Below are positions 6,497 to 59,862 of a DNA stretch of 64,000 nucleotides, piece after piece. Origin of the DNA: Brevibacillus brevis (lineage in GTDB: Bacteria > Bacillota > Bacilli > Brevibacillales > Brevibacillaceae). The stretch is taken from contig NZ_CP134050.1 of NCBI RefSeq assembly GCF_031583145.1, positions 4,045,001 through 4,109,000 on the forward strand, given 5' to 3'. The notes below the pieces were generated by a model, which worked only from the letters and a program-made list of their open reading frames with translations, was not told the origin of the DNA and did no database searches. A program made the position numbers and the translations under genes. Every line of letters begins with the position of its first letter. Within the stretch, counting starts at the first letter, position 1.

Positions 6497-7662
6497 CATT
6501 GACGGTACGCCAAAAAATATTTGTCTACATGGGACTGATCGTTCTTATTATCGGCGGCTCTCATGCCGTAACCAATCTGGCCTATATGGAGTTTTTGTTC
6601 GATCAATTTCGTAAGGAAGAGCTCCGTGCTTCTTTTTTGAACGCTCCCCCCGGGGAACAAATCGAGTTGTTGAAAACGTACGTGATGGGCAAGATGAAGT
6701 TGTTTTGGCTCGGAAAATGGGGCTTTTTCCTGGCAATCGGCCTTTTCTTCAGTTTATGGATTTCAGGAGTACTGACTCTCCCGCTTCGAAAGCTCATTGC
6801 CGCGATCGAACGCGTTGCAAAGGGGGATCTGGAGGTGAGCGTTCCTGTACAATCCAAAGACGAATACGGGAAAGTCATCCAGACGTTCAACGATATGACA
6901 CTTCGCCTGCGGGAAGCGGAGGACGCCCGAAAGCGGTTGGTGGCCGACATCACTCACGAGCTTCGTACACCGCTGTCCATTATGCAGCTGAAGCTGGAAA
7001 ATTATCAGCAGGCCGGTCATCATGTCCCGCCGGAAATGCTTCGGATTCATGATGAAGTGATCCGATTGAGCCTGCTTGTGGATGATCTTCATGTCTTGTC
7101 GTTGGCAGAAGCTGGCCGGTTGCCGCTCGATTGCAAACCGCTCGATCTGACGGCACACCTGGAACGAATTGTGGATGACGTAAAATACGAAGCGGAAGAA
7201 AACGGATTGGAAATTCGCCTCAATTCGATTTCACGGCCGGTTACCGTAATGGCCGATGCGAGACGAATTACGCAGGTTTTCATTAATTTGCTGACCAATG
7301 CGATTCGTTACACGGCTAGCGGAGGTACGATTACCGTTGAAATCGAAGAACGGGTCGTTGAGCGGAATGCGTTATTTGCATGTGTATCCGTGATCGACAC
7401 CGGCATCGGAATACCGGCGGAAGAGCTCCTACACCTATTCGATCGGTTTTACCGCGTAGAAGAAGCGCGCTCGCGGCACACAGGCGGTACGGGGCTCGGA
7501 TTATCCATCGCCCATCATTTTGTAAGAGCCCATGGCGGCTTCATCCAAGTGTCAAGTCAGCCTGATGAAGGCACTGTATTTACCGTTAATCTACCTATTG
7601 GCAGTAGTACATGCGCGGCTGACACTGCCATTCAAATCGTACAATGGAGGAAAAACGTATGA
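6493..7662 (+). CDS. sensor histidine kinase
   Basis: 389 aa. TM1 is at about 9-27; a short ~45-residue external loop is followed by TM2 at about 73-95, HAMP at 92-145, HisKA with phospho-acceptor H155 in ADITHELRTPL, and a C-terminal HATPase_c with N box NLLTNAIRY, G1 DTGIGIP and G2 GGTGLGLSIAHHF. The organisation is that of BaeS/ResE-type kinases. The small loop suggests it senses membrane state or a partner protein, which is inference. The stop codon overlaps the ATG of the next gene. Confidence 0.95.
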   Translation: MTLTVRQKIFVYMGLIVLIIGGSHAVTNLAYMEFLFDQFRKEELRASFLNAPPGEQIELLKTYVMGKMKLFWLGKWGFFLAIGLFFSLWISGVLTLPLRKLIAAIERVAKGDLEVSVPVQSKDEYGKVIQTFNDMTLRLREAEDARKRLVADITHELRTPLSIMQLKLENYQQAGHHVPPEMLRIHDEVIRLSLLVDDLHVLSLAEAGRLPLDCKPLDLTAHLERIVDDVKYEAEENGLEIRLNSISRPVTVMADARRITQVFINLLTNAIRYTASGGTITVEIEERVVERNALFACVSVIDTGIGIPAEELLHLFDRFYRVEEARSRHTGGTGLGLSIAHHFVRAHGGFIQVSSQPDEGTVFTVNLPIGSSTCAADTAIQIVQWRKNV

Positions 7663-7898
7663 ACTTTACCCCACAACAACAAGCTGTATTACTGGCATTA
7701 ACCACGGAATGGCAGACACCGGTGCAGATTGCTAGTCATCTTTCGGATGCATGGGGGAATCCATCCCACCTAAATGAGCGGCTCAAGGAACTGATGAGTG
7801 AAGGATTGGTGCAGGCCAATCCGGTCGTGCCAGGCCTGTATCGATTAACAACCGAAGGCATGGCCAGAAAGACGTTGGAATTGGGTGAGAACCGATAA
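7659..7898 (+). CDS. small winged-helix protein, third gene of the two-component operon
   Basis: 79 aa from the ATG at 7659, which overlaps the kinase stop (ATGA) and has GGAGG 8 nt upstream. The sequence NFTPQQQAVLLALTTEWQTPVQIASHL...LNERLKELMSEGLVQANPVVPGLYRLTTEGM is a compact MarR/PadR-like winged helix: recognition helix, then a wing ending in a TTEG motif. It has no dimerisation extension. Translational coupling to a histidine kinase suggests an accessory transcription factor or an inhibitor of the circuit; the function is unknown. Confidence 0.75.
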   Translation: MNFTPQQQAVLLALTTEWQTPVQIASHLSDAWGNPSHLNERLKELMSEGLVQANPVVPGLYRLTTEGMARKTLELGENR

Positions 7899-40309: not shown

Positions 40310-40520
40310 GTAAAATACCCCTCATCTGACGGAGCCTTTTGCCTCATTGCAACCACATCTTCCGTGTTTTCTACTTGGAAGCCCAAGTGGTTTAGTACAC
40401 CTTTTTTCTCAAAAAGGACGTACATTCAGGGAAAAATGCAGGGCTGGCAAGTCCAGTTCAAATTTGGCGTAGTTCTCTTTTACCTTTGTCAGTTCCTCAC
40501 TGAAGAAGATACGTTAAAAC
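40310..40520 (-). pseudogene. arsI: ArsI/CadI-type VOC protein, internal fragment with frameshift
   Basis: On the minus strand the frame FSEELTKVKENYAKFELDLP plus ALHFSLNVRPF stops at TGA. The adjacent frame continues EKKGVLNHLGFQVENTEDVV plus AMRQK. One extra T near 40,415 in a T-run separates the two. This is the middle of the ArsI C-As lyase/CadI family (ALHFSLN and NHLGFQVE are conserved; the His is a metal ligand). The start and the Cys-pair C-terminus are gone. Confidence 0.75.
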
Positions 40521-49269: not shown

Positions 49270-50103
49270 TCAACCTTCTTGAATCCTTTCCCCACGCATG
49301 TACATTTTTTTCGCGTGGAAGAACGTTACGTGTGTAGACAAGGTTCGCTCCCCAAACAGTTCGTTCAAATAACCAGCCACCGCCTGCGCAGCAAACCGAT
49401 TGGTAATTAACCTCTGTGGCTCAGACGCGATCACCTGTGAGCAGGCCATTTCAGAGGGAGCGATCTCGTCCTCATCCTCCAATATGTCCGGAAAGCGGCC
49501 GGCCACCGGTTCCAGAAACGTTTTTCCGTTCAATCTCAATCCGGCTACTACTTGTCCTGTCCATCCAGTATTCGCGTGACGCTGCTTCTCCTCCTCCGTC
49601 CACTCTTCTCGTGGCCGGCGGTCACGAGGAACCCAGGCAGCTTCCACTCCCACATCGATGTAGAGCAGCTTTTCTTGACTGAGAAAGTAACTGTGCATGA
49701 CCTGGCGTATGTAGTTGTTATCCACTGCGCCGATCAAAATCGGAAGAAAAAACGTGTCCCAACTGTAACAGCCTCGATAATCCGTAAACTGAAACAATCG
49801 GTCTAACGTTCTTTCATCCTCAATGTACCGTTCATCAAACGCAGCGATCGGCACTTGATAATGGCTGCGGTAGCGGTTAGCCAGTACCGCAGCTTTCTTC
49901 TGTCCGACATCCTTTGGTATAAAGAGTTGATTGGCCAAATTCTTTTGTTCTACCGTATCCGGATCGGCCACCAGGTAAAACCCCTGTACCTTGAATATAT
50001 TCATCATTTGAGCGCATTGCTGCAGAATATATCCGCCATTTGCGCCTGCGCCGATCTGAACGATATAGTAAAAGATCTTCTTCCGTTCGTTAAACCGTAT
50101 CAT
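49270..50103 (-). CDS. E1-like adenylyltransferase (ThiF family, PRTRC type)
   Basis: 277 aa. ATP site IVQIGAGANGGYILQQ (GxGxNG), then ADPDTVEQKNLANQLF (the D-x-D-x-V...NL-x-x-Q signature of E1/ThiF/MoeB), LIGAVDNNYIRQV, and the conserved C-terminal PSEMACSQVIASEPQRLITNRFAAQAVAGYLN. The Cys there sits where PRTRC ThiF proteins carry CS...Q...N and is the candidate thioester Cys. Adenylates the C-terminus of a ubiquitin-like protein. Overlaps the end of the Ub-JAB gene by 14 nt, so the two are translationally coupled. Confidence 0.85.
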   Translation of the reverse strand: MIRFNERKKIFYYIVQIGAGANGGYILQQCAQMMNIFKVQGFYLVADPDTVEQKNLANQLFIPKDVGQKKAAVLANRYRSHYQVPIAAFDERYIEDERTLDRLFQFTDYRGCYSWDTFFLPILIGAVDNNYIRQVMHSYFLSQEKLLYIDVGVEAAWVPRDRRPREEWTEEEKQRHANTGWTGQVVAGLRLNGKTFLEPVAGRFPDILEDEDEIAPSEMACSQVIASEPQRLITNRFAAQAVAGYLNELFGERTLSTHVTFFHAKKMYMRGERIQEG

Positions 50104-51205
50104 CGTCTCCCGCTCCTTTCACGGACACTTGAGGAAAGTCCAGGTTCGTCGGAGACTCCAACGGTGATTCAAAGACAATATGGGGATTGATGATCAGATA
50201 CTCCCCGTCCAGACACGTCCTCACCAGAATTTGCGGGAAGAAATCCAGCACCCTTCCCACAACCGCATAGAGGATCGGCGCCTGCTCAGATCGATCATCT
50301 TGGGAAGAAAAGTAGGCTTCCATCGTATGGTGAGAGTGGATTTCCATCACTTTCACGACGTTTTCCACGTAAGCTACTTGCTCAGTTGGTTCACACATGT
50401 CTCTGCTCACAATCTGTGCCGGTATCACCAGTCGATACCCTTCTTCTCCCCAGTAAATCTCTCCATGAACCTCAGCGCCATATGTCCGGGCGAAGTGGCG
50501 GGCGACAACCAAAAACTGCGTCAGAATCCCCCAGGGAATCCTGGGGTATTTTAGACGCACACCTTCTACCAACGTCGGAACACTAGGAACCTTCCGAGCC
50601 CTTTTGCAGATCGTTAACGCTTCTGTTTCGCGGATATGGTACATATGACCATCAGCTCCGGGAACGTACATGTTGGACCGGCGGTTTGCCACAGCATCCT
50701 CCAGCTTCAGATAGATACCATGTCGGCGTTCCAAGAGCATGCCGCTTCCTTTCTTTCGTGCGGTTAGAACAGGGATAATCATATTCTTTTCCTTAATGAA
50801 TGTCATCGTTGTTAACTCTTCAGTTAGTTCGCCAAAGTCGTTCTCCAACCGCTTCCGCACGTCTTCACCAGTAATGTTCCTCAATTTCACTTCGGCGTTG
50901 TCTCCTGTAGTTTGTTCATCAGTTGGAGAACTGTCTGGAAGACCATTCGTGATTTCTTCCGGTGTAAAGTAATCGGTCAGAGGAATGTTCTCCCCGCCAT
51001 ACCGGATGATCGTCTCGGTGTTTAGTTCCCATGTTTCCGGTTCACTTTTCGTGACAGATACAGCCGTTTTCTTTTGGTCCTTGGAAGCTACCCGTGATTT
51101 CGTGGATGCCGTCGTCTTTTTGCCTTTTCCTGTGTCCTGGATGGCCTCCGGTTCCTCTTCTCCTAAAAAGCTGAACAAAGTTTCTTGAAACAGTTTGTCA
51201 GTCAT
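50090..51205 (-). CDS. ubiquitin-like domain fused to a JAB/JAMM peptidase (PRTRC A/C-like)
   Basis: 371 aa from the ATG at 51205 with GAGGAGG 10 nt upstream. Residues 1-55 are a charged, disordered tail. Residues ~57-153 (WELNTETIIRYGGENIPLTDYFTPEEI..., ITGEDVRKRLENDFGELTEEL..., IIPVLTARKKGSG) follow the pattern of the PRTRC protein C / Prok_Ub family and end in a GSG-like tail. Residues ~200-371 form an MPN domain: E246/E249 in AEVHGEIYWGEEG and the JAMM site MEIHSHHTMEAYFSSQDD (H290, H292, S301, D304). This would be a ubiquitin-like unit joined to its own processing protease. It is cotranscribed with the E1-like gene. The Ub assignment is weaker than the JAB one. Confidence 0.72.
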   Translation of the reverse strand: MTDKLFQETLFSFLGEEEPEAIQDTGKGKKTTASTKSRVASKDQKKTAVSVTKSEPETWELNTETIIRYGGENIPLTDYFTPEEITNGLPDSSPTDEQTTGDNAEVKLRNITGEDVRKRLENDFGELTEELTTMTFIKEKNMIIPVLTARKKGSGMLLERRHGIYLKLEDAVANRRSNMYVPGADGHMYHIRETEALTICKRARKVPSVPTLVEGVRLKYPRIPWGILTQFLVVARHFARTYGAEVHGEIYWGEEGYRLVIPAQIVSRDMCEPTEQVAYVENVVKVMEIHSHHTMEAYFSSQDDRSEQAPILYAVVGRVLDFFPQILVRTCLDGEYLIINPHIVFESPLESPTNLDFPQVSVKGAGDDDTV

Positions 51206-51236
51206 GCTTTCCATGCCTCCTCTTGGATTCATTTCA

Positions 51237-53183
51237 GTAGAGTAGAGAACTGAAACTTTTGGGCGACCATATGGTCGCCTTACTCATTTCAGCTCCCCCT
51301 CATCAAACCGTACGTGAGGTTTTCCCTCATACGGCTTTCCGATGCTCTTCTTTCTTTGGCATTCGGTAGTCCTCTCCGGCAAGTTTCACCAATGATCCCC
51401 GTGTGGCTTTCATTACCTCCCCGACCCTGGAATGCTTGTTTCGCACATTCCTTTTCTTGTTAACGAATAGCGTCAGCCTTTCTATTACATACCAATCAAT
51501 TCTGTTTAACCATCTTGCTGCCATAGTTGAAATTGAATAGTAGTTCTTGAATCCCTTAAGCTTTCGATTAAGCCCTTGTACCACCTCATGCAGCGACCAG
51601 TACAACTTGCTGCGCGGTTCGGTGTACATCTTAATTTTCCGTCTCATTTCTTTCATTGCTTTCTTGCTTGGAATATGTGACATGGCATATATCCTTTTTC
51701 CACCTTTAATGAGAACGGGAAATTTTCGATGATGAAAACCGAGGAAGTCAAAGCCTGCGGTATTGTCCCAGATATTGACCAATCGAGACTTTTCCTTGCT
51801 AAGAGTAAGGTCAAGTTTGCTCATAATGGCCCTTATAACCTGGATGCTTTCCAAGGCATCCTTTTTCGTCTTGCACATGACCACGAAATCATCGGCGTAT
51901 CGAACTAATTCGCCAAGATGAGAAAATTGTTTCTCCCAGATTGTATCCATGTAGTTGAGGTAAATGTTCGCAAGTAGCGGCGAAATTACTCCTCCTTGCG
52001 GAGTTCCCCAATCCGTTTCATGGAACTGTACACCTTCCATGACACCTGCTTGCAGCCATTTTCGAATCAGTTTTAGTACTCTGCGGTCAGAAATCCTTTG
52101 CTCAACCAGTTTCATCAACTTCTCCTGGTTGATGTTGTCAAAGTACCCCTTGATGTCTACATCAACTACCCAATACGCCTGTTTGCTCGCTTTTCTGATT
52201 TGTGCAATCGCCTGGTGGGCATTTCGTTTCGGTCGGAATCCATATGAACAATCTTTAAAGTCCGCCTCAAAAATTGGCTCAATGACCATTTTGGTTGCCA
52301 TTTGGACAACTCGATCTCGTATCGTCGGGATGCCAAGCGGTCTTTGCTTCCCATCCGCTTTCGGAATGTACGTGCGTCGAACTGGTGCTGGATGGTACCG
52401 TTTTCTCTTTAGGTCGAGGTAGATTTCATTGAGGAATTTACTCTCTCCGTATTCATGTACAATTCTTCCGATTGTCTGTCCGTCCACTCCGCCGCTTCCT
52501 TTGTTGGCACGCACTCTGCGCCATGCTTCGGCAAGGATGTCAGGACGATACACCTTGTCATACAGAGCATGAAATCGCCGTTTTGGGTGTTCCTTGGCAC
52601 AAAGATATAGGGTTGTCCAAAGTTGTCGAGCTTTTACATCGGTGTAGTTAGCAAGTTTACTTGCATTCACTCACTCTTACCTCCTTTCAACCCATGAACA
52701 AAGCAGGGCTCCTTTCCTCCATGGAGTTTTGTTGTCTCCACTTCTCTGGTACTATGAGCCCCTCCGACTCCCTCTCTGCCGTCCACCACTTCCCTTACGG
52801 TTATAGGTTTCCGCTTTACACTCCCACGGAGTGTGCAAAGTAGGGTCTCCCCAGTTCCGTTCCTTACTTTCTCAGCATACCGTTCCCCTTACCCCGAGAG
52901 GTTCTTGAGTGCTGCGATCCAAGTTCTACACACCTTCCATGGCCTTCGCCCATTTCCACCAGGCTCGGCTCCTCCTTGTCCATCTTACAATGGTCTTTCT
53001 TAACGAGGCGGCAGGATTCACTTTATGTTACGGTCTGCTGATTTGCTTGCACCCTTTCGGGTTACTTTGTCACAGGGCTTCAACCTTAGGATCTCTCCAC
53101 CAGTTGCCTGTCAGCTACGAGGCGACTTGGCTCTTACCTCGGTTGGACTTTCACCAACTAGCAATTAACGGCTCGCTGGGCAC
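51237..53183 (-). mobile_element. group II intron, class C-type, with encoded reverse transcriptase
   Basis: 1,947 bp. The 5' end, on the minus strand, begins GTGCCCAGCGAGCC at 53183, and ~500 nt of ribozyme RNA precedes the RT gene. After the RT come domain V (GAGCATCGGAAAGCCGTATG... with a GAAA loop and ACGTACGG partner, about 51,300-51,345), a domain VI-like stem containing GGCGACCATATGGTCGCC (51,264-51,281), and the end CTCTACTCTACT at about 51,237. It is inserted immediately after the T-tract of a terminator, the preferred site of class C introns. Boundaries are accurate to a few bases. Confidence 0.85.
51327..52670 (-). CDS. ltrA: group II intron reverse transcriptase/maturase
   Basis: 447 aa. 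RT domains: RRTYIPKADGKQRPLGIPTIRDRVVQMA, DIKGYFDNINQEKL, GTPQGGVISPLLANIYLN, and the polymerase active site RYADDFVVMCKTK (YADD). The maturase X domain follows (RLTLFVNKKRNVRNKHSRVGEV). No HNH endonuclease domain, as in class C introns. Complete and probably active. Confidence 0.96.
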   Translation of the reverse strand: MNASKLANYTDVKARQLWTTLYLCAKEHPKRRFHALYDKVYRPDILAEAWRRVRANKGSGGVDGQTIGRIVHEYGESKFLNEIYLDLKRKRYHPAPVRRTYIPKADGKQRPLGIPTIRDRVVQMATKMVIEPIFEADFKDCSYGFRPKRNAHQAIAQIRKASKQAYWVVDVDIKGYFDNINQEKLMKLVEQRISDRRVLKLIRKWLQAGVMEGVQFHETDWGTPQGGVISPLLANIYLNYMDTIWEKQFSHLGELVRYADDFVVMCKTKKDALESIQVIRAIMSKLDLTLSKEKSRLVNIWDNTAGFDFLGFHHRKFPVLIKGGKRIYAMSHIPSKKAMKEMRRKIKMYTEPRSKLYWSLHEVVQGLNRKLKGFKNYYSISTMAARWLNRIDWYVIERLTLFVNKKRNVRNKHSRVGEVMKATRGSLVKLAGEDYRMPKKEEHRKAV

Positions 53184-53185
53184 GC

Positions 53186-53223
53186 AAAAAAAAATAAAGA
53201 CTATAGCTTTCGCTAAAGTCTTT
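53186..53223 (-). terminator. terminator of the E2-like gene, target of the intron
   Basis: AAAGACTATAGC (53196-53207) pairs with GCTAAAGTCTTT (53212-53223), followed on the minus strand by ATTTTTTTTTGC and then the intron 5' end. Confidence 0.85.
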
Positions 53224-53226
53224 GAT

Positions 53227-53988
53227 CTACAGTTCTTGGCAGTATTGTCCAAACGTTCGTTGCTTGGATGTTAACCATTCCTCTGGAAAATCCTGCCCTT
53301 GCATGCGATTGTATAGCTCCCGCAAATCACTGATCCCGGATTCGTTCCGGTTCGTGTTGTAATAGCAGGTAGAACTGGGAGCCGCAAAAAAGACCTGGTG
53401 CATAGTAGCAAGTTGAGCCAAGTCTTTGATAACCGGCAACGTATTTCCCCCCATACAAACCACACCATTCGATACATTCGCGTAAGGAAACTTGTATAGT
53501 TCGGTGTCCTCGCGAATCCTCCCCTTGTCCTTGACGGCCAAGATGTGCAGCTGTTGAATGCGACCATCCCGGATTCGGTACCCAAACAACATCCGCGGGA
53601 ATCCCACCTGTTCAAAAGTGGTGTTGTAATAGGCAATGTCCCATTTTCCTTTAGGCACCTCGATAAATACCATCTGGATCTTCTGCGCTCGATTAATCCA
53701 AATGTGTTTGACACAGTTGACGGGCAAGGTAGGAGTCTCGATACGTATCGCCGGATTTTTCATCCGTTTTCTTCCGATGATTTTTCGTAGTCGTTTCCGT
53801 TTCTGAACCCCCAGGATTCTCATTGGCTTTAAATTCTCCGATTCAGAATTTCGGATGGACTCGACAAAATCATCAAAACTCATCACGTATTCGTCTACCT
53901 TTACGCCCTCCGATGAGGTAACCTGGACAGTACAGTATGGTGTGTGCTGCGTAAAATCATCACTAAACTTCACAGTAAAATGCAGCAT
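53227..53988 (-). CDS. E2-like ubiquitin-conjugating protein (PRTRC protein B type)
   Basis: 253 aa from the ATG at 53988 (GAGGTG 7 nt upstream; a GTG at 53997 overlaps that site). The C-terminal half matches the Prok-E2_D/PRTRC_B pattern: KGKWDIAYYNTTFEQ, GRIQQLHILAVKDKGRIREDTELYKFPYANVSNGVVCMGGNTLP, where C178 takes the place of the E2 active-site Cys, and FFAAPSSTCYYN. The N-terminal ~100 residues carry a basic helical stretch. Expected to receive the ubiquitin-like protein from the E1 as a thioester. Overlaps the preceding gene by 26 nt. Confidence 0.78.
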   Translation of the reverse strand: MLHFTVKFSDDFTQHTPYCTVQVTSSEGVKVDEYVMSFDDFVESIRNSESENLKPMRILGVQKRKRLRKIIGRKRMKNPAIRIETPTLPVNCVKHIWINRAQKIQMVFIEVPKGKWDIAYYNTTFEQVGFPRMLFGYRIRDGRIQQLHILAVKDKGRIREDTELYKFPYANVSNGVVCMGGNTLPVIKDLAQLATMHQVFFAAPSSTCYYNTNRNESGISDLRELYNRMQGQDFPEEWLTSKQRTFGQYCQEL

Positions 53989-54484
53989 ACCTCGCACCTC
54001 TATTTCCTTTTAAGTATTGGGCATACACCAACAACCTATCGAGTAACTTCCTGATCTGGATGAGCTCTTGAATGAACTGATTGAAATAGGACGGACTTTC
54101 GTGGATCTCGATGATAAAGCCCATTTTCTTCAGTTCGATGATCATCTCAGCTCCCGTCCAGTCGCAGACAACTCTCTTATTCCATCGGAGCTGTCTTTCG
54201 ACCCATTCTTTTGTAAACACCCCAAGAAGTTCTTCGACGTCTGGACATAGGATGACAAACTTCCGGATGTCATATGACCCGTCTTCCTCTTCTTCCTCAG
54301 CGCAAGCACCAAACAGTCGCTCCGTTGCCTTCATAAAGATATCTCCCCCCATGTTTTCAAACGCATAATCCGTTACCCAGCACCCCATGTCGGATACCCG
54401 ATACCCAGCATCGTGAAGGAGCTTTAACGAAAGCAAATTATCCAAGGACGACTGAATGACTTGGCAATCCTCGATACTAAACAT
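53963..54484 (-). CDS. hypothetical 173-aa protein of the ubiquitin-like cassette
   Basis: ATG at 54484 with GGGAGAG upstream. Predominantly helical; acidic run CAEEEEEDGSYD at about 60-72; WNKRVVCDWTGAEMIIELKKMGF in the middle; helical C-terminus IQELIQIRKLLDRLLVYAQYLKG. Overlaps the E2-like gene. Position recalls the poorly characterised PRTRC proteins E/F, but I cannot assign it. Confidence 0.7.
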   Translation of the reverse strand: MFSIEDCQVIQSSLDNLLSLKLLHDAGYRVSDMGCWVTDYAFENMGGDIFMKATERLFGACAEEEEEDGSYDIRKFVILCPDVEELLGVFTKEWVERQLRWNKRVVCDWTGAEMIIELKKMGFIIEIHESPSYFNQFIQELIQIRKLLDRLLVYAQYLKGNRGARYAAFYCEV

Positions 54485-54498
54485 ATCAATGCTCTCCC

Positions 54499-54849
54499 TC
54501 AGATAAAATCGTCTTCTTCTGCATACTGTTTCTTCCTAGAATGAAGCAGTGTGTAAATGTTCTGCGTGCTCCTGACATACTCATAGATTACGTTGTACCA
54601 ATTGGCCCGCTCAGTTTCTTCATCATAGATGTCTTCCATCGAATAAAGAGAATGGGCTTCATTGTACACGTAATCCAGTTCGTCCAATGTAAAGCTGTCG
54701 AAATCGACTTCCGATGCATCGGCGCCGGCATACAGGTATTCGACGATGCGAAACATACCTGGAGTTTGCCTACGTGGACTATTTGATGAGATGCTGCGAA
54801 CCTGAAGTTGTTTTAGGAACTCATTGGTTGAAAATCTCCTTTTCTTCAT
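54499..54849 (-). CDS. hypothetical 116-aa acidic protein
   Basis: ATG at 54849 with AAAGGA about 12 nt upstream. Basic first 30 residues (MKKRRFSTNEFLKQLQVRS), then a strongly acidic helical body (GADASEVDFDSFTLDELDYVYNEAHSLYSMEDIYDEETERANWYNVIYEYV). No family recognised; first gene of the transcript that runs into the E2-like gene. Confidence 0.68.
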   Translation of the reverse strand: MKKRRFSTNEFLKQLQVRSISSNSPRRQTPGMFRIVEYLYAGADASEVDFDSFTLDELDYVYNEAHSLYSMEDIYDEETERANWYNVIYEYVRSTQNIYTLLHSRKKQYAEEDDFI

Positions 54850-54908: not shown

Positions 54909-56033
54909 TTATGCCGATCGCACAGGTAGTATTAAGGCAAACCCTGGTTCATTACCTGTTGGCCGGATGATAATCGGTGCATTTGCTCCTGATGCTTGAA
55001 ACATGACTTCTTTGGCCTTCATATGGCGTAACGCTTCCAGAAGATACTTCGTGCTGAACTTCATCTCCAAAATATCGCCTTCGAGATCCGAGATAAACAC
55101 TTCCTCCTGCACTTTTCCCATTCCCTCCTGACTGGCCGAAATGAGAAGAGAAGGCATTGCGGATGGTATCACCTGTAAGCGACACATATTGGCTTTTCCT
55201 TCTTTGGAGACGATACTCACCCGTTCCATTACCTTGACTAATTCATCCCGATTTGCCACAAATGTTGTTGAAAAATTTGTCGGGACTACCCTGGATGTTT
55301 CCGGGTAGGTACCAGAAATCAGTCGTGATATATATGTCACGTTTTGGTGCGTCAATCGCATCGAGTTTTCTGTGCAGTGGATGGTGACCTTATCGGCAGC
55401 ATCTTCAATTAGCTTTATCATCTCTACTGCAGCGCTCGCAGGCAAAATCATCTTCGGTAACTTCAGTTCTTGATCCAGTTGCACTGTCCAAGAGCTCAGC
55501 CTATGAGAATCCGTTGCGACAAACGTTACTCCCTTTTCCTTGCTAAAGATATGGATGCCCTGCAGGGTGGGTCGCATTGACAATACCGAGCAGGCGTACT
55601 CCAAACGTAACCCGTTTGCCAAATCCGCTGCTTGTAACTCAACACAAACGCCGGTATCGTCCAACGAAAAGGATGGGTACTCATCAGCTTTCATCGTCTT
55701 TAGCTCGAAAGTCGATTTCCCCGCGGCAATGGAGATTTCATTCTCACCCATTTTCAGTTGGATCTCACCCGCCGGCAGCTTACGCACAATGTCCAGGAAT
55801 ATTCTTGCCGGTACGACGACCGCACATGATTGAGACGATGAGCAATTGTTTTCCTCCGTTATCCGGATGGTGTTATCCGTATCCGAACCGGTAATGGTCA
55901 AAGATTCTCCCGTGAAATGGAGATGAAAACCGGTTAGAATCGGAATCGTCGTCTGTTTTGCAACTGCTCGGTACGCTTTCGACAGATCAGCAACTAAACG
56001 GTCTGAATCCTTGATCACGATTTTCTTCTTCAT
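54909..56033 (-). CDS. dnaN: DNA polymerase III beta-clamp homologue (element-encoded)
   Basis: 374 aa from the ATG at 56033 with TAGGAGGAAGC upstream. Three clamp domains: AYRAVAKQTTIPILTGFHLHFTGESLTITGSDTDNTI; then LEYACSVLSMRPTLQGIHIFSKEKGVTFVATDSHRLSSW; then MERVSIVSKE...FSTKYLLEALRHMKAKEVMFQ...PIIIRPTG...FALILPVRSA. The TLQGIHI and ATDSHRL motifs are DnaN-specific. An accessory clamp on a mobile element may recruit host polymerase or mismatch factors. Its leader contains a structured RNA repeated before radC. Confidence 0.92.
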   Translation of the reverse strand: MKKKIVIKDSDRLVADLSKAYRAVAKQTTIPILTGFHLHFTGESLTITGSDTDNTIRITEENNCSSSQSCAVVVPARIFLDIVRKLPAGEIQLKMGENEISIAAGKSTFELKTMKADEYPSFSLDDTGVCVELQAADLANGLRLEYACSVLSMRPTLQGIHIFSKEKGVTFVATDSHRLSSWTVQLDQELKLPKMILPASAAVEMIKLIEDAADKVTIHCTENSMRLTHQNVTYISRLISGTYPETSRVVPTNFSTTFVANRDELVKVMERVSIVSKEGKANMCRLQVIPSAMPSLLISASQEGMGKVQEEVFISDLEGDILEMKFSTKYLLEALRHMKAKEVMFQASGANAPIIIRPTGNEPGFALILPVRSA

Positions 56034-56034
56034 G

Positions 56035-56112
56035 CTTCCTCCTACTCGAACCGGGGCCGAGTGGCCCCATAGTTCGAGCCACACGTTTTCTTACCCCGGT
56101 GGTAGGTAGAAT
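56035..56112 (-). ncRNA. structured leader element before dnaN (copy 1)
   Basis: On the minus strand: ACCACCGGGGTAAGAAAACG, then TGTGGCTCGAAC, a TAT bulge, GGGGCC-ACTC-GGCCCC, then GGTTCGAGTAGGAGG. The outer stem CTCGAAC/GTTCGAG and inner stem GGGGCC/GGCCCC form one long hairpin ending directly at the Shine-Dalgarno site. A second copy precedes radC with compensatory changes. Confidence 0.65.
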
Positions 56113-56141: not shown

Positions 56142-56825
56142 CTAAAAGTACCTCTGTTCTTTTAAACTAATATACTTTCCATCCCCGATAATGACGTGAT
56201 CAAGCAGGCTAATACCAACCACCTCTCCTGCTTGCCGCAAAATTTGCGTGATCGAAATGTCTTCCTTACTTGGGGTTGGATCTCCGCTCGGATGATTGTG
56301 CAGACAAATAATCGATGCCGCGCTCCTCTTGATCGCCTCTTTAAAAATCTCACGGGGATGCACAACCGATGAATCCAAACTTCCTATAAAGATCGTCTGC
56401 TTACCGATTACACGATTTTTTGTATTCAGAAACAGACATATAAAATGTTCCTGCGTTAAGTACCTCATTTCAGGCATCATAAGTTCCGCTACATCACGCG
56501 GGAGACGAATGGAAATCCTTTTCTCTCTTGGGCTGGTTACATATTTGTGTGCCAATCCAAAGGAGGCGACGATCCGCTGTGCTGCCATTTCACTGATAGA
56601 CGCAAGTTCCATGATTTCTTGGGCAGACATCGAAGCGAGTTGTTGAATCCCGATGCCAGTTAACTTTTGAATGTTTGCAGCATCTGCTTCGTTTCCAATA
56701 ATGATCGTCAACAGATCGTTCAAATTCGCTTCCTTCGTCCCGTAGAACGTGATGCTTTCTTTGGCTTTTTTGACAAATTCAGTTACGATGAAATCGTATT
56801 GAAACATTTCGATTTGCTTCACCAT
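56142..56825 (-). CDS. radC: RadC family protein
   Basis: 227 aa from the ATG at 56825; the ribosome site GGGAGGA is very close, so the GTG next to it may be used. N-terminal helix-hairpin-helix (DLLTIIIGNEADAANIQKLTGIGIQQLASMSAQEIMELASISEMAAQRIVASFGL) and a C-terminal JAB/MPN with HPREIFKEAIKRSAASIICLHNHPSGDPTPSKEDIS (complete JAMM). This is the second radC in the window and, unlike the one at 30397, full-length. Confidence 0.92.
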   Translation of the reverse strand: MVKQIEMFQYDFIVTEFVKKAKESITFYGTKEANLNDLLTIIIGNEADAANIQKLTGIGIQQLASMSAQEIMELASISEMAAQRIVASFGLAHKYVTSPREKRISIRLPRDVAELMMPEMRYLTQEHFICLFLNTKNRVIGKQTIFIGSLDSSVVHPREIFKEAIKRSAASIICLHNHPSGDPTPSKEDISITQILRQAGEVVGISLLDHVIIGDGKYISLKEQRYF

Positions 56826-56925: not shown

Positions 56926-57365
56926 TCATCTACATTCGATGTAACTTTCTGGCTTTGTTTCGAGATACAATGTAAACCTACACTCCCTGCAAAAGTATTT
57001 TCTGTCAGGATTGTTTTGTTCAGCTTCATCCTCCAACATGATCTGAATGAATGACTTCCTTTCTGCGGTTTTCCGAATGATCGCCTTAAGGGTTGACATG
57101 GTAAGGACTCCATTGATTACGAAATGAACCTGATACTGAACCATGAGAGAAGAGCTATCGTCGAACGGTTTCATCCCGCTTTTTAGGGTTGAAAGCAGTA
57201 AACTAATCACATTCCAGATTCGTTCGTTTGTTGATTGTCCTACTGTAATCGACTCTTCGGGTTCAATATAGGTTTTCCATAAGGCAGAAGAGACCGCTAC
57301 CGGAATTCTGATCCCAATCTCTTTAGCCGTATCCGATACGTCGACTAATCTTCCTTCGCATATGG
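56926..57365 (-). pseudogene. DUF6573-like gene, 3' part (interrupted by IS21)
   Basis: From the IS junction the frame reads EGRLVDVSDTAKEIGIRIPV then AVSSALWKTYIEPEE..., a pattern (G-x-LVDV-x...G-x-x-x-PVA-x-x-x-x-LW) I recall from the DUF6573 family of plasmid proteins. Then MVQYQVHFVINGVLTMSTLKAIIRKTAERKS, DRKYFCRECRFTLYLETKPE and stop. Joined with the 43-nt 5' part at 59820-59862 it makes one unbroken frame of about 157 residues (MKLETFEDFQRAIC + EGRLVDV...). Confidence 0.8.
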
Positions 57366-57512
57366 TGTTTATGGCAGGATAAAAGTGCAGAGAATTGCGG
57401 CGGAAAACTGCAGAGTTCCACCGCAATTCTGAGGCCATGAAAAAGGCACTTGCCAACATCCCCCTACAAAATCTACCCTTGGATTTGGCGAAAATCTGAG
57501 GGAGTGAGAGGA

Positions 57513-59743
<2,231 letters not shown>

Positions 59744-59819
59744 ATTCTTTTGTATTGATGTTGGCAGTGTTCTGCATAAATTGGCCGCCAAACTCTGCAT
59801 TTTTGAGTTGCAAAATACA

Positions 59820-59862
59820 CGCATATGGCTCGTTGGAAATCCTCAAACGTTTCCAATTTCAT
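59820..59862 (-). pseudogene. DUF6573-like gene, 5' part (interrupted by IS21)
   Basis: The ATG at 59862 is preceded by GGGGGAGG and reads MKLETFEDFQRAIC up to the IS end. It rejoins 56926-57365 in frame when the IS and one copy of the target duplication are removed. Confidence 0.78.

Follow-up and report, generated by a model that had tools for sequence, protein, structure and literature searches.

A predicted clamp-docking tag made joined to its predicted protease in Brevibacillus brevis points to a possible bacterial equivalent of replication-fork ubiquitination

Analysis of a 64-kb stretch of Brevibacillus brevis DNA (the window, to which the coordinates refer) revealed a ubiquitin-type conjugation cassette on the minus strand, with genes encoding two conserved proteins (p116 and p173), an E2-like enzyme, a fusion of a ubiquitin-like (Ub) domain with a JAB/JAMM peptidase (Ub-JAB) and a ThiF/E1-like adenylyltransferase. 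This cassette is probably the Bacillota form of a diverged PRTRC or Iyer type 6d conjugation system, with a self-processing modifier, that works docked on the DNA sliding clamp. The strongest clue to its function is a predicted clamp-binding motif in the tail of the modifier, which was absent from a preliminary description of this DNA, as were p116 and p173, the spread of the cassette on plasmids of Bacilli and a group II intron; the link to DNA maintenance suggested there is supported. More specifically, and as a proposal that we hold to be possible rather than probable, the cassette may be a plasmid ubiquitin pathway acting on the clamp, in which conjugation, through the peptide on the modifier, would either tie targets to the clamp or mark proteins already bound to it, the modifier being first freed and later removed by its own protease.

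The motif, QETLF, lies within the tail peptide MTDKLFQETLFSFLG, which spans Q7 and F11 of the fusion protein; it is conserved, is located in a disordered region and fits the published clamp-binding consensus QL[S/D]LF, more generally QxxLF (PMC12309361), and on this basis the tail of the fusion is predicted to dock on the beta clamp. Q7 and F11 are invariant in 11 fusions (alignment A5). The pattern Q-x-x-[LIM]-F was detected within the first 25 residues in 21 of 30 clusters (70% identity), with a mean of 0.2 clusters for shuffled tails and never more than four in 5000 shuffles, although these counts are only a guide since the start codons were chosen by the analyst and the clusters are not fully independent. 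As a background, the motif was present in the N-terminal 25 residues of five of 594 other open reading frames (ORFs) of at least 150 aa from the same loci, and two of these five are copies of the RadC gene adjoining the clamp gene. A non-clamp partner for the Q-x-x-L-F tail, such as the E2 or an adaptor of a protease, would be in line with a consensus that runs beyond the pentapeptide (QTDIFSMF, QSSLFDLL, QxDLFSYFG) and may represent a longer amphipathic helix; this is quite unlikely, however, given the match of the tail to the published clamp consensus, the position of the motif in a disordered end, its co-occurrence with clamp genes and the exact clamp consensus that ends another cassette protein in cyanobacteria.

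In those cyanobacterial cassettes (n = 4) the motif ends the first protein rather than the modifier, in the form of QLNLF (Gloeothece), QLSLF (Trichormus), QLKLF (Chroococcidiopsis) and QMALL (Pseudanabaena). That more than one protein of the cassette can bear the docking motif speaks for contact with the clamp being under selection, and as part of the same tentative proposal the clamp link may persist while the motif moves, being carried by the modifier in Bacillota and by the first cassette protein in cyanobacteria.

Regarding genomic context, a gene encoding the DNA polymerase III beta sliding clamp (dnaN; TIGR00663, 249.4 bits against a cut-off of 137.65; closest PDB chain 4tr6, E 1.3e-56) stands directly before p116-p173-E2-UbJAB-ThiF in the window. 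The same order, dnaN included, is present on plasmids of Cytobacillus, Rossellomorea, Planococcus, Virgibacillus, Niallia, Sutcliffiella, Priestia and Terribacillus, most of which have a Rad52-type gene preceding dnaN, and dnaN is also located upstream on Alicyclobacillus and Rubrobacter plasmids, with other genes intervening. A clamp gene was found within the fetched stretch of 18 of the 31 clusters, and none was detected in the stretches fetched from Paenibacillus and B. laterosporus. Most plasmid clamps keep the motifs assigned to the peptide pocket of beta. The RadC-like protein encoded upstream of the clamp has the N-terminus MVKQIEMFQYDF, in which QIEMF (56802-56816) fits a clamp-type motif; the clamp motif of Escherichia coli Pol III alpha is QADMF. 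On Lysinibacillus sphaericus pSSII-1 (L061:8825-12509), the clamp-loader genes dnaX and delta' directly follow ThiF and are another link to the clamp machinery; a distant clamp homologue is encoded downstream of them.

The presence of a Ub-like domain within the JAB polypeptide, as previously proposed, is supported by alignment of relatives and by structure modelling. Residues 56-153 are a conserved block ending in [KT]KG in fusions of many Bacilli genera and Rubrobacter. In the compact versions from an Alicyclobacillus plasmid, locus L049 and phage contig L033, PRTRC_C is the sole NCBIfam match and Prok_Ub the top Pfam match, with E values of 4e-5 to 2e-3 that are all under cut-off. The Ub family profile aligned with the PRTRC_C profile in hhalign (P = 2.4e-5, probability 75), whereas no significance was reached when the Bacillota alignment A7 was compared directly, also in hhalign, with a single PRTRC_C sequence. 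The AlphaFold model of the window's Ub domain (mean predicted local distance difference test score, pLDDT, of 84.7) has the order beta-beta-alpha-beta-beta, and the 50 matches listed by VIA-align, from a candidate pool pre-ranked by Foldseek, are all ubiquitin, ubiquitin variants or ISG15-type modifiers (Z 4.0-4.6), with model residues 8-97 superposed on ubiquitin 1-76. We regard residues 56-153 as ubiquitin-like, a view for which the comparative support is good and the structural support moderate. The Ub profile detects only the fusion in these loci, and the DNA surrounding the fusions yielded no further gene for a modifier.

Several observations weigh against a clamp-docked, ubiquitin-like modifier. 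In nine of the 30 clusters the first 25 residues do not contain the Q-form of the motif, although most of these clusters keep -[LI]F, and 13 of the 31 clusters have no nearby clamp gene, some of the fetched stretches being short. The C-termini of PRTRC_E in Pseudomonadota mostly fit the motif poorly; they were considered as clamp motifs and are not claimed as such, only that of Ahniella (QASIF) fitting well. Clamp motifs also arise often in transposases and unrelated mobile-element proteins (PMC4549789). As to the domain itself, that of the window has no direct match in Pfam or NCBIfam and was assigned via its relatives, the best VIA Z of 4.6 is modest, and Foldseek with the modifier model returned no significant PDB match (best E 1.1), which does not imply a new fold.

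Support for a modifier that is released from the fusion comes from relatives in which it is encoded separately. The unfused protein of L049 stops at ..GAKKG and that of L034 at ..AGTKG, while those of L062 and L044 end in ..TSKGAL and ..TSKGGF, each followed by a separate JAB ORF. L033, a 244-kb viral contig in which positions 7290-7670 encode a tandem PRTRC_C-like polyubiquitin, has two near-identical tandem units, each ending in AGTKG, with E2, JAB and ThiF genes nearby. A PRTRC_C-like protein of Pseudanabaena ends in ..AGTKGAT, while in those of other cyanobacteria AGTKG is followed by some 80 more residues. Almost all sequences retain the K-G ending, and the split forms stop at the equivalent Gly or two residues beyond it. 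Because unfused and tandem relatives end at the equivalent Gly, the end of the modifier in the window was placed at Gly153, which is the predicted site of cleavage and mature C-terminus; the preliminary description had proposed a self-processing site near TARKKG, which is supported, but set the end at GSG, two residues further on. These relatives fix the modifier end better than modelling does. In the full-length AlphaFold model pLDDT is low at residues 150-168, just past Gly153, and the segment following Gly153 is probably flexible, as a cleavage site would require. JAB cleavage after the terminal glycine of Ub has been proposed for phage tail proteins (PMC1779556).

Alternatively, the Ub domain could stay fused to JAB as a regulatory or substrate-mimic domain that is not conjugated, which would agree with the fusion being the usual form in Bacillota and with Ub running almost directly into JAB in several Bacillaceae. 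We consider this very unlikely, since the fusion is accompanied by E1 and E2 genes in which the cysteines are intact and no other modifier gene was found nearby, the K-G ending is so nearly universal and matched by the ends of the split forms, and the linker past Gly153 is flexible in the model.

Conjugation by a released modifier also agrees with the state of the enzymes. The three leftward genes previously described are all present as minus-strand ORFs (Table 1), and their assignments hold: the E2 matches Prok-E2_D (PF14460) with 55.2 bits (gathering cut-off 25) and its proposed Cys178 is conserved in 40 of 41 aligned homologues, the JAB domain matches Prok-JAB (PF14464) with 28.7 bits (cut-off 25), and ThiF is above its Pfam cut-off. 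ThiF has G-x-G-x-x-G at residues 18-23 and a presumed thioester cysteine, C221 (codon 49441-49443), invariant in 40 of 40 homologues. The JAMM motif E..HxHx7SxxD is present, with E245, H290, H292, S300 and D303 invariant in the aligned fusions; H290 and H292 had been named correctly, while S301 and D304 were each one residue off. It is intact in all relatives with a complete JAB ORF except phage contig L034. The JAB part gave a good model, and its nearest solved structures are JAMM deubiquitinases, with Z of 13.2 to 5lda_A (Pyrococcus furiosus JAMM1 with SAMP2) and 8tyx_B (a bacterial Ubl-deubiquitinase complex); no solved structure is near the E2 by sequence. In Brevibacillus fulvus (L022:10001-11113), a fusion gene 95% identical to that of the window has an in-frame TGA near its end, and the protein thus stops a few residues early. 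Three further Prok-JAB genes are located elsewhere in the genome of the window (2004435, 2177149 and 5147723).

Table 1. Features of the cassette and its surroundings in the Brevibacillus brevis window.
Feature	Coordinates	Strand	Remarks
ThiF/E1-like adenylyltransferase	49270..50103	-	277 aa; Pfam ThiF 32.9 bits (cut-off 28.1)
Ub-JAB fusion protein	50090..51205	-	371 aa; start MTDKLF; AGGAGG ~10 nt upstream
JAB/JAMM isopeptidase core, residues 216-346	50168..50560	-	E245, H290, H292, S300, D303
Linker and PRTRC_A N-terminal region, residues 154-215	50561..50746	-	aligns with N-terminal part of PRTRC_A
Ubiquitin-like domain, residues 56-153, PRTRC_C-like	50747..51040	-	ends in TARKKG
N-terminal tail of modifier, residues 1-55	51041..51205	-	predicted disordered, pLDDT <50
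Predicted beta-clamp-binding motif QETLF, residues 7-11	51173..51187	-	in disordered tail
Group II intron	51236..53185	-	ends approximate to 1-2 nt; between E2 and JAB genes
Reverse transcriptase/maturase ORF of intron	51327-52670	-	Pfam RVT_1, GIIM
E2-like enzyme (Prok-E2_D)	53227..53988	-	253 aa; Cys178 codon 53455-53457
p173, conserved cassette protein	53963..54484	-	32 homologous ORFs in compared loci
p116, conserved cassette protein	54499..54849	-	30 homologous ORFs; C-terminal tip ..EEDDFI
DNA polymerase III beta sliding clamp (dnaN)	54909..56084	-	directly upstream of cassette
RadC-like gene	56142..56825	-	upstream of clamp; Pfam RadC 167 bits

Regarding family membership, the likeness to PRTRC cassettes noted earlier is reflected in the best NCBIfam matches, which are PRTRC_A for the JAB protein (45.3 bits, under the cut-off of 101.8), PRTRC_B for the E2 (52.5 bits, under 131.45) and PRTRC_ThiF for ThiF (74.6 bits, under 144.75); with scores of about half of the cut-offs or less, the cassette is a PRTRC relative and not a formal member. 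ParB, the absence of which had already been noted, PRTRC_E and PRTRC_F were not found among the cassette genes scanned with Pfam and NCBIfam, and p173 has no family match in either. Two further identities were considered for p116 and p173 and rejected: a missing ubiquitin, there being no match to Prok_Ub or PRTRC_C and no C-terminal Gly in p116, and PRTRC_F or a cyanobacterial helical protein (hhalign probabilities <1%). In most genera the C-terminal tip of p116 is acidic and then hydrophobic (..EDDFI, ..DDDFI, ..EVDFF), reminiscent of the tip of the single-stranded DNA-binding protein (DDDIPF), and this tip could be a second replisome-docking tail.

The block p116-p173-E2-UbJAB-ThiF is found among large plasmids of Gram-positive bacteria, including those of many Bacilli genera, in which Ub and JAB are usually fused. 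The fusion was detected in 5 of 39 genomes of the window's order (its own included) and in 15 of 399 genomes of a class-level draw; in a phylum-wide draw of 398 genomes the window itself was the sole finding. Such cassettes, linked earlier with plasmids of other phyla, are thus not confined to these, Bacilli plasmids carrying them widely and usually in the fused form. The window is part of a 6.15-Mb contig, so that the cassette here lies in a chromosome-sized replicon. A region of about 90 kb, from window position 40326 to approximately genome position 4174650, is largely common to the 107-kb contig of a relative, with an identity of mostly 88-99%, and is thus probably a mobile block. In each of two relatives homology begins exactly at 40326, and the shared backbone is broken at about 57365-59825 by an IS21-type element (57450-59743).

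The E2 and JAB genes belong to one cassette, as first described, but are not adjacent, being separated by the group II intron, the RNA of which was recognised by Rfam (RF02003, 112.1 bits; RF00029, 53.6 bits). The insertion site is uninterrupted in two close relatives, L011 and L012, which shows that the intron inserted directly behind a rho-independent-type terminator of the E2 gene, with the ribosome-binding site of the JAB gene following the insertion. As a passenger, the intron does not belong to the conjugation system. Reverse transcriptase genes are also located between E2 and JAB on Cytobacillus and Planococcus plasmids, and group II intron reverse transcriptases recur near the E2/JAB junction across genera (L016, L035, L062), where the terminator is possibly a favoured intron target. 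Severed by an intron behind a terminator, the chromosomal copy could be an unexpressed, decaying remnant, and the copies in some relatives do have stop codons inside the match. This we regard as highly improbable, as all cassette ORFs in the window are intact with their catalytic residues conserved, and the intron retains its RNA domains and reverse transcriptase; furthermore, the same terminator precedes Ub-JAB in intron-free relatives, and expression would therefore not have to rely on read-through.

The clamp-docked conjugation system that we favour can be set out in steps. It starts from what is seen directly, that is gene content, conserved catalytic residues, the fusion, conservation of the motif and gene order; from sequence, structure models and comparison we infer the first four steps, and for targets, reversal and benefit we offer inference only. 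First, JAB would cut after Gly153, in cis or in trans, giving a free 153-residue modifier and the protease; second, ThiF/E1 would activate Gly153 via Cys221; third, the E2 would receive the modifier on Cys178 and Gly153 would be conjugated to lysines; and fourth, the flexible tail would dock on the beta clamp via QETLF. Docking would lead to conjugation on, or aimed at, replication-fork proteins, most simply the plasmid clamp or its clients; candidate targets include the plasmid clamp, clients such as RadC and polymerase, and host replisome proteins. In a fifth step, the freed JAB domain may reverse the mark. The benefit is likely to be control of replication or repair of large plasmids, which is the weakest step of the scheme. 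To our knowledge, phage defence and sulfur chemistry account for most of the roles assigned to bacterial Ub-like systems to date. For the widespread PRTRC/6d plasmid cassettes, known since 2006, a conserved clamp motif on the modifier with an adjoining clamp gene offers a concrete and cheaply testable hypothesis, namely action at replication forks.

Among known systems, the kind of cassette is already known, as operon type 6d (Iyer et al., 2006; PMC1779556) and as the PRTRC families of NCBIfam (TIGR03735-TIGR03742). The type 6d list includes C. necator, A. variabilis, B. cereus and B. thuringiensis (PMC1779556), the first two of which carry PRTRC-type cassettes. In the literature searched, neither a link of PRTRC or Ub-JAB to the sliding clamp nor the Ub-JAB fusion in this cassette was found; important later papers on bacterial Ub-like systems lay outside that search, so that an earlier mention of the fusion is possible and priority is not established. 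The window cassette and its relatives share with PRTRC the gene order B (E2-like), A (JAB) and ThiF, a predicted PRTRC_C-like modifier ending in x-K-G and an association with large plasmids. They differ in that C and A are one polypeptide in the window cassette, neither ParB nor PRTRC_E was found in it, a clamp gene precedes it, p116 and p173 are not recognisably PRTRC_F and the scores are under the cut-offs.

With BIL (BilABCD) and the Cap2/Cap3 proteins of type II CBASS the cassette shares an E1, an E2 and a JAMM-type peptidase; BilC (JAMM) matures the modifier BilA (PMC11354881), and Cap3 (JAMM) reverses conjugation (PMC10097602). These likenesses raise the question of an anti-phage or anti-plasmid defence, in which the clamp motif merely recruits the system to invading forks: the known bacterial E1/E2/JAB Ub-like pathways act against phage (PMC10097602; for BIL, PMC11354881), the E1-E2 models of PADLOC weakly match ThiF, and clamp docking could sense foreign replication. 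However, the cassette has separate E1 and E2 proteins instead of a fused E1-E2 protein, and has no CD-NTase, no effector and no ISG15-like double modifier. A known defence system was rejected as an identity, PADLOC giving no match for E2, JAB, p173 or p116, and many of the plasmids have clamp and Rad52-type genes, not defence genes, next to the cassette. Defence is thus considered unlikely, and replication or repair is favoured over it because of the neighbours and the missing defence signatures.

The archaeal SAMP-JAMM and Caldiarchaeum Ub-Rpn11 systems have the JAMM fold as well, and the structures closest to JAB include PfJAMM1 (5lda) and the Rpn11 homologue of Caldiarchaeum. In the solved complexes modifier and protease are separate chains, in contrast to the single polypeptide with a clamp-type motif described here. 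The modifier-protease fusion may serve as a compact model for self-processing ubiquitin precursors. In eukaryotes, ubiquitin chemistry is tied to the sliding clamp through ubiquitination of PCNA, where the clamp is the target, while in the present cassette the modifier itself appears to bear the clamp-docking peptide, so that the analogy is a functional one only. A predicted clamp-docking tag made joined to its predicted protease thus hints at a bacterial equivalent of fork-associated ubiquitination and, if true, would be a bacterial parallel to ubiquitin signalling on PCNA.

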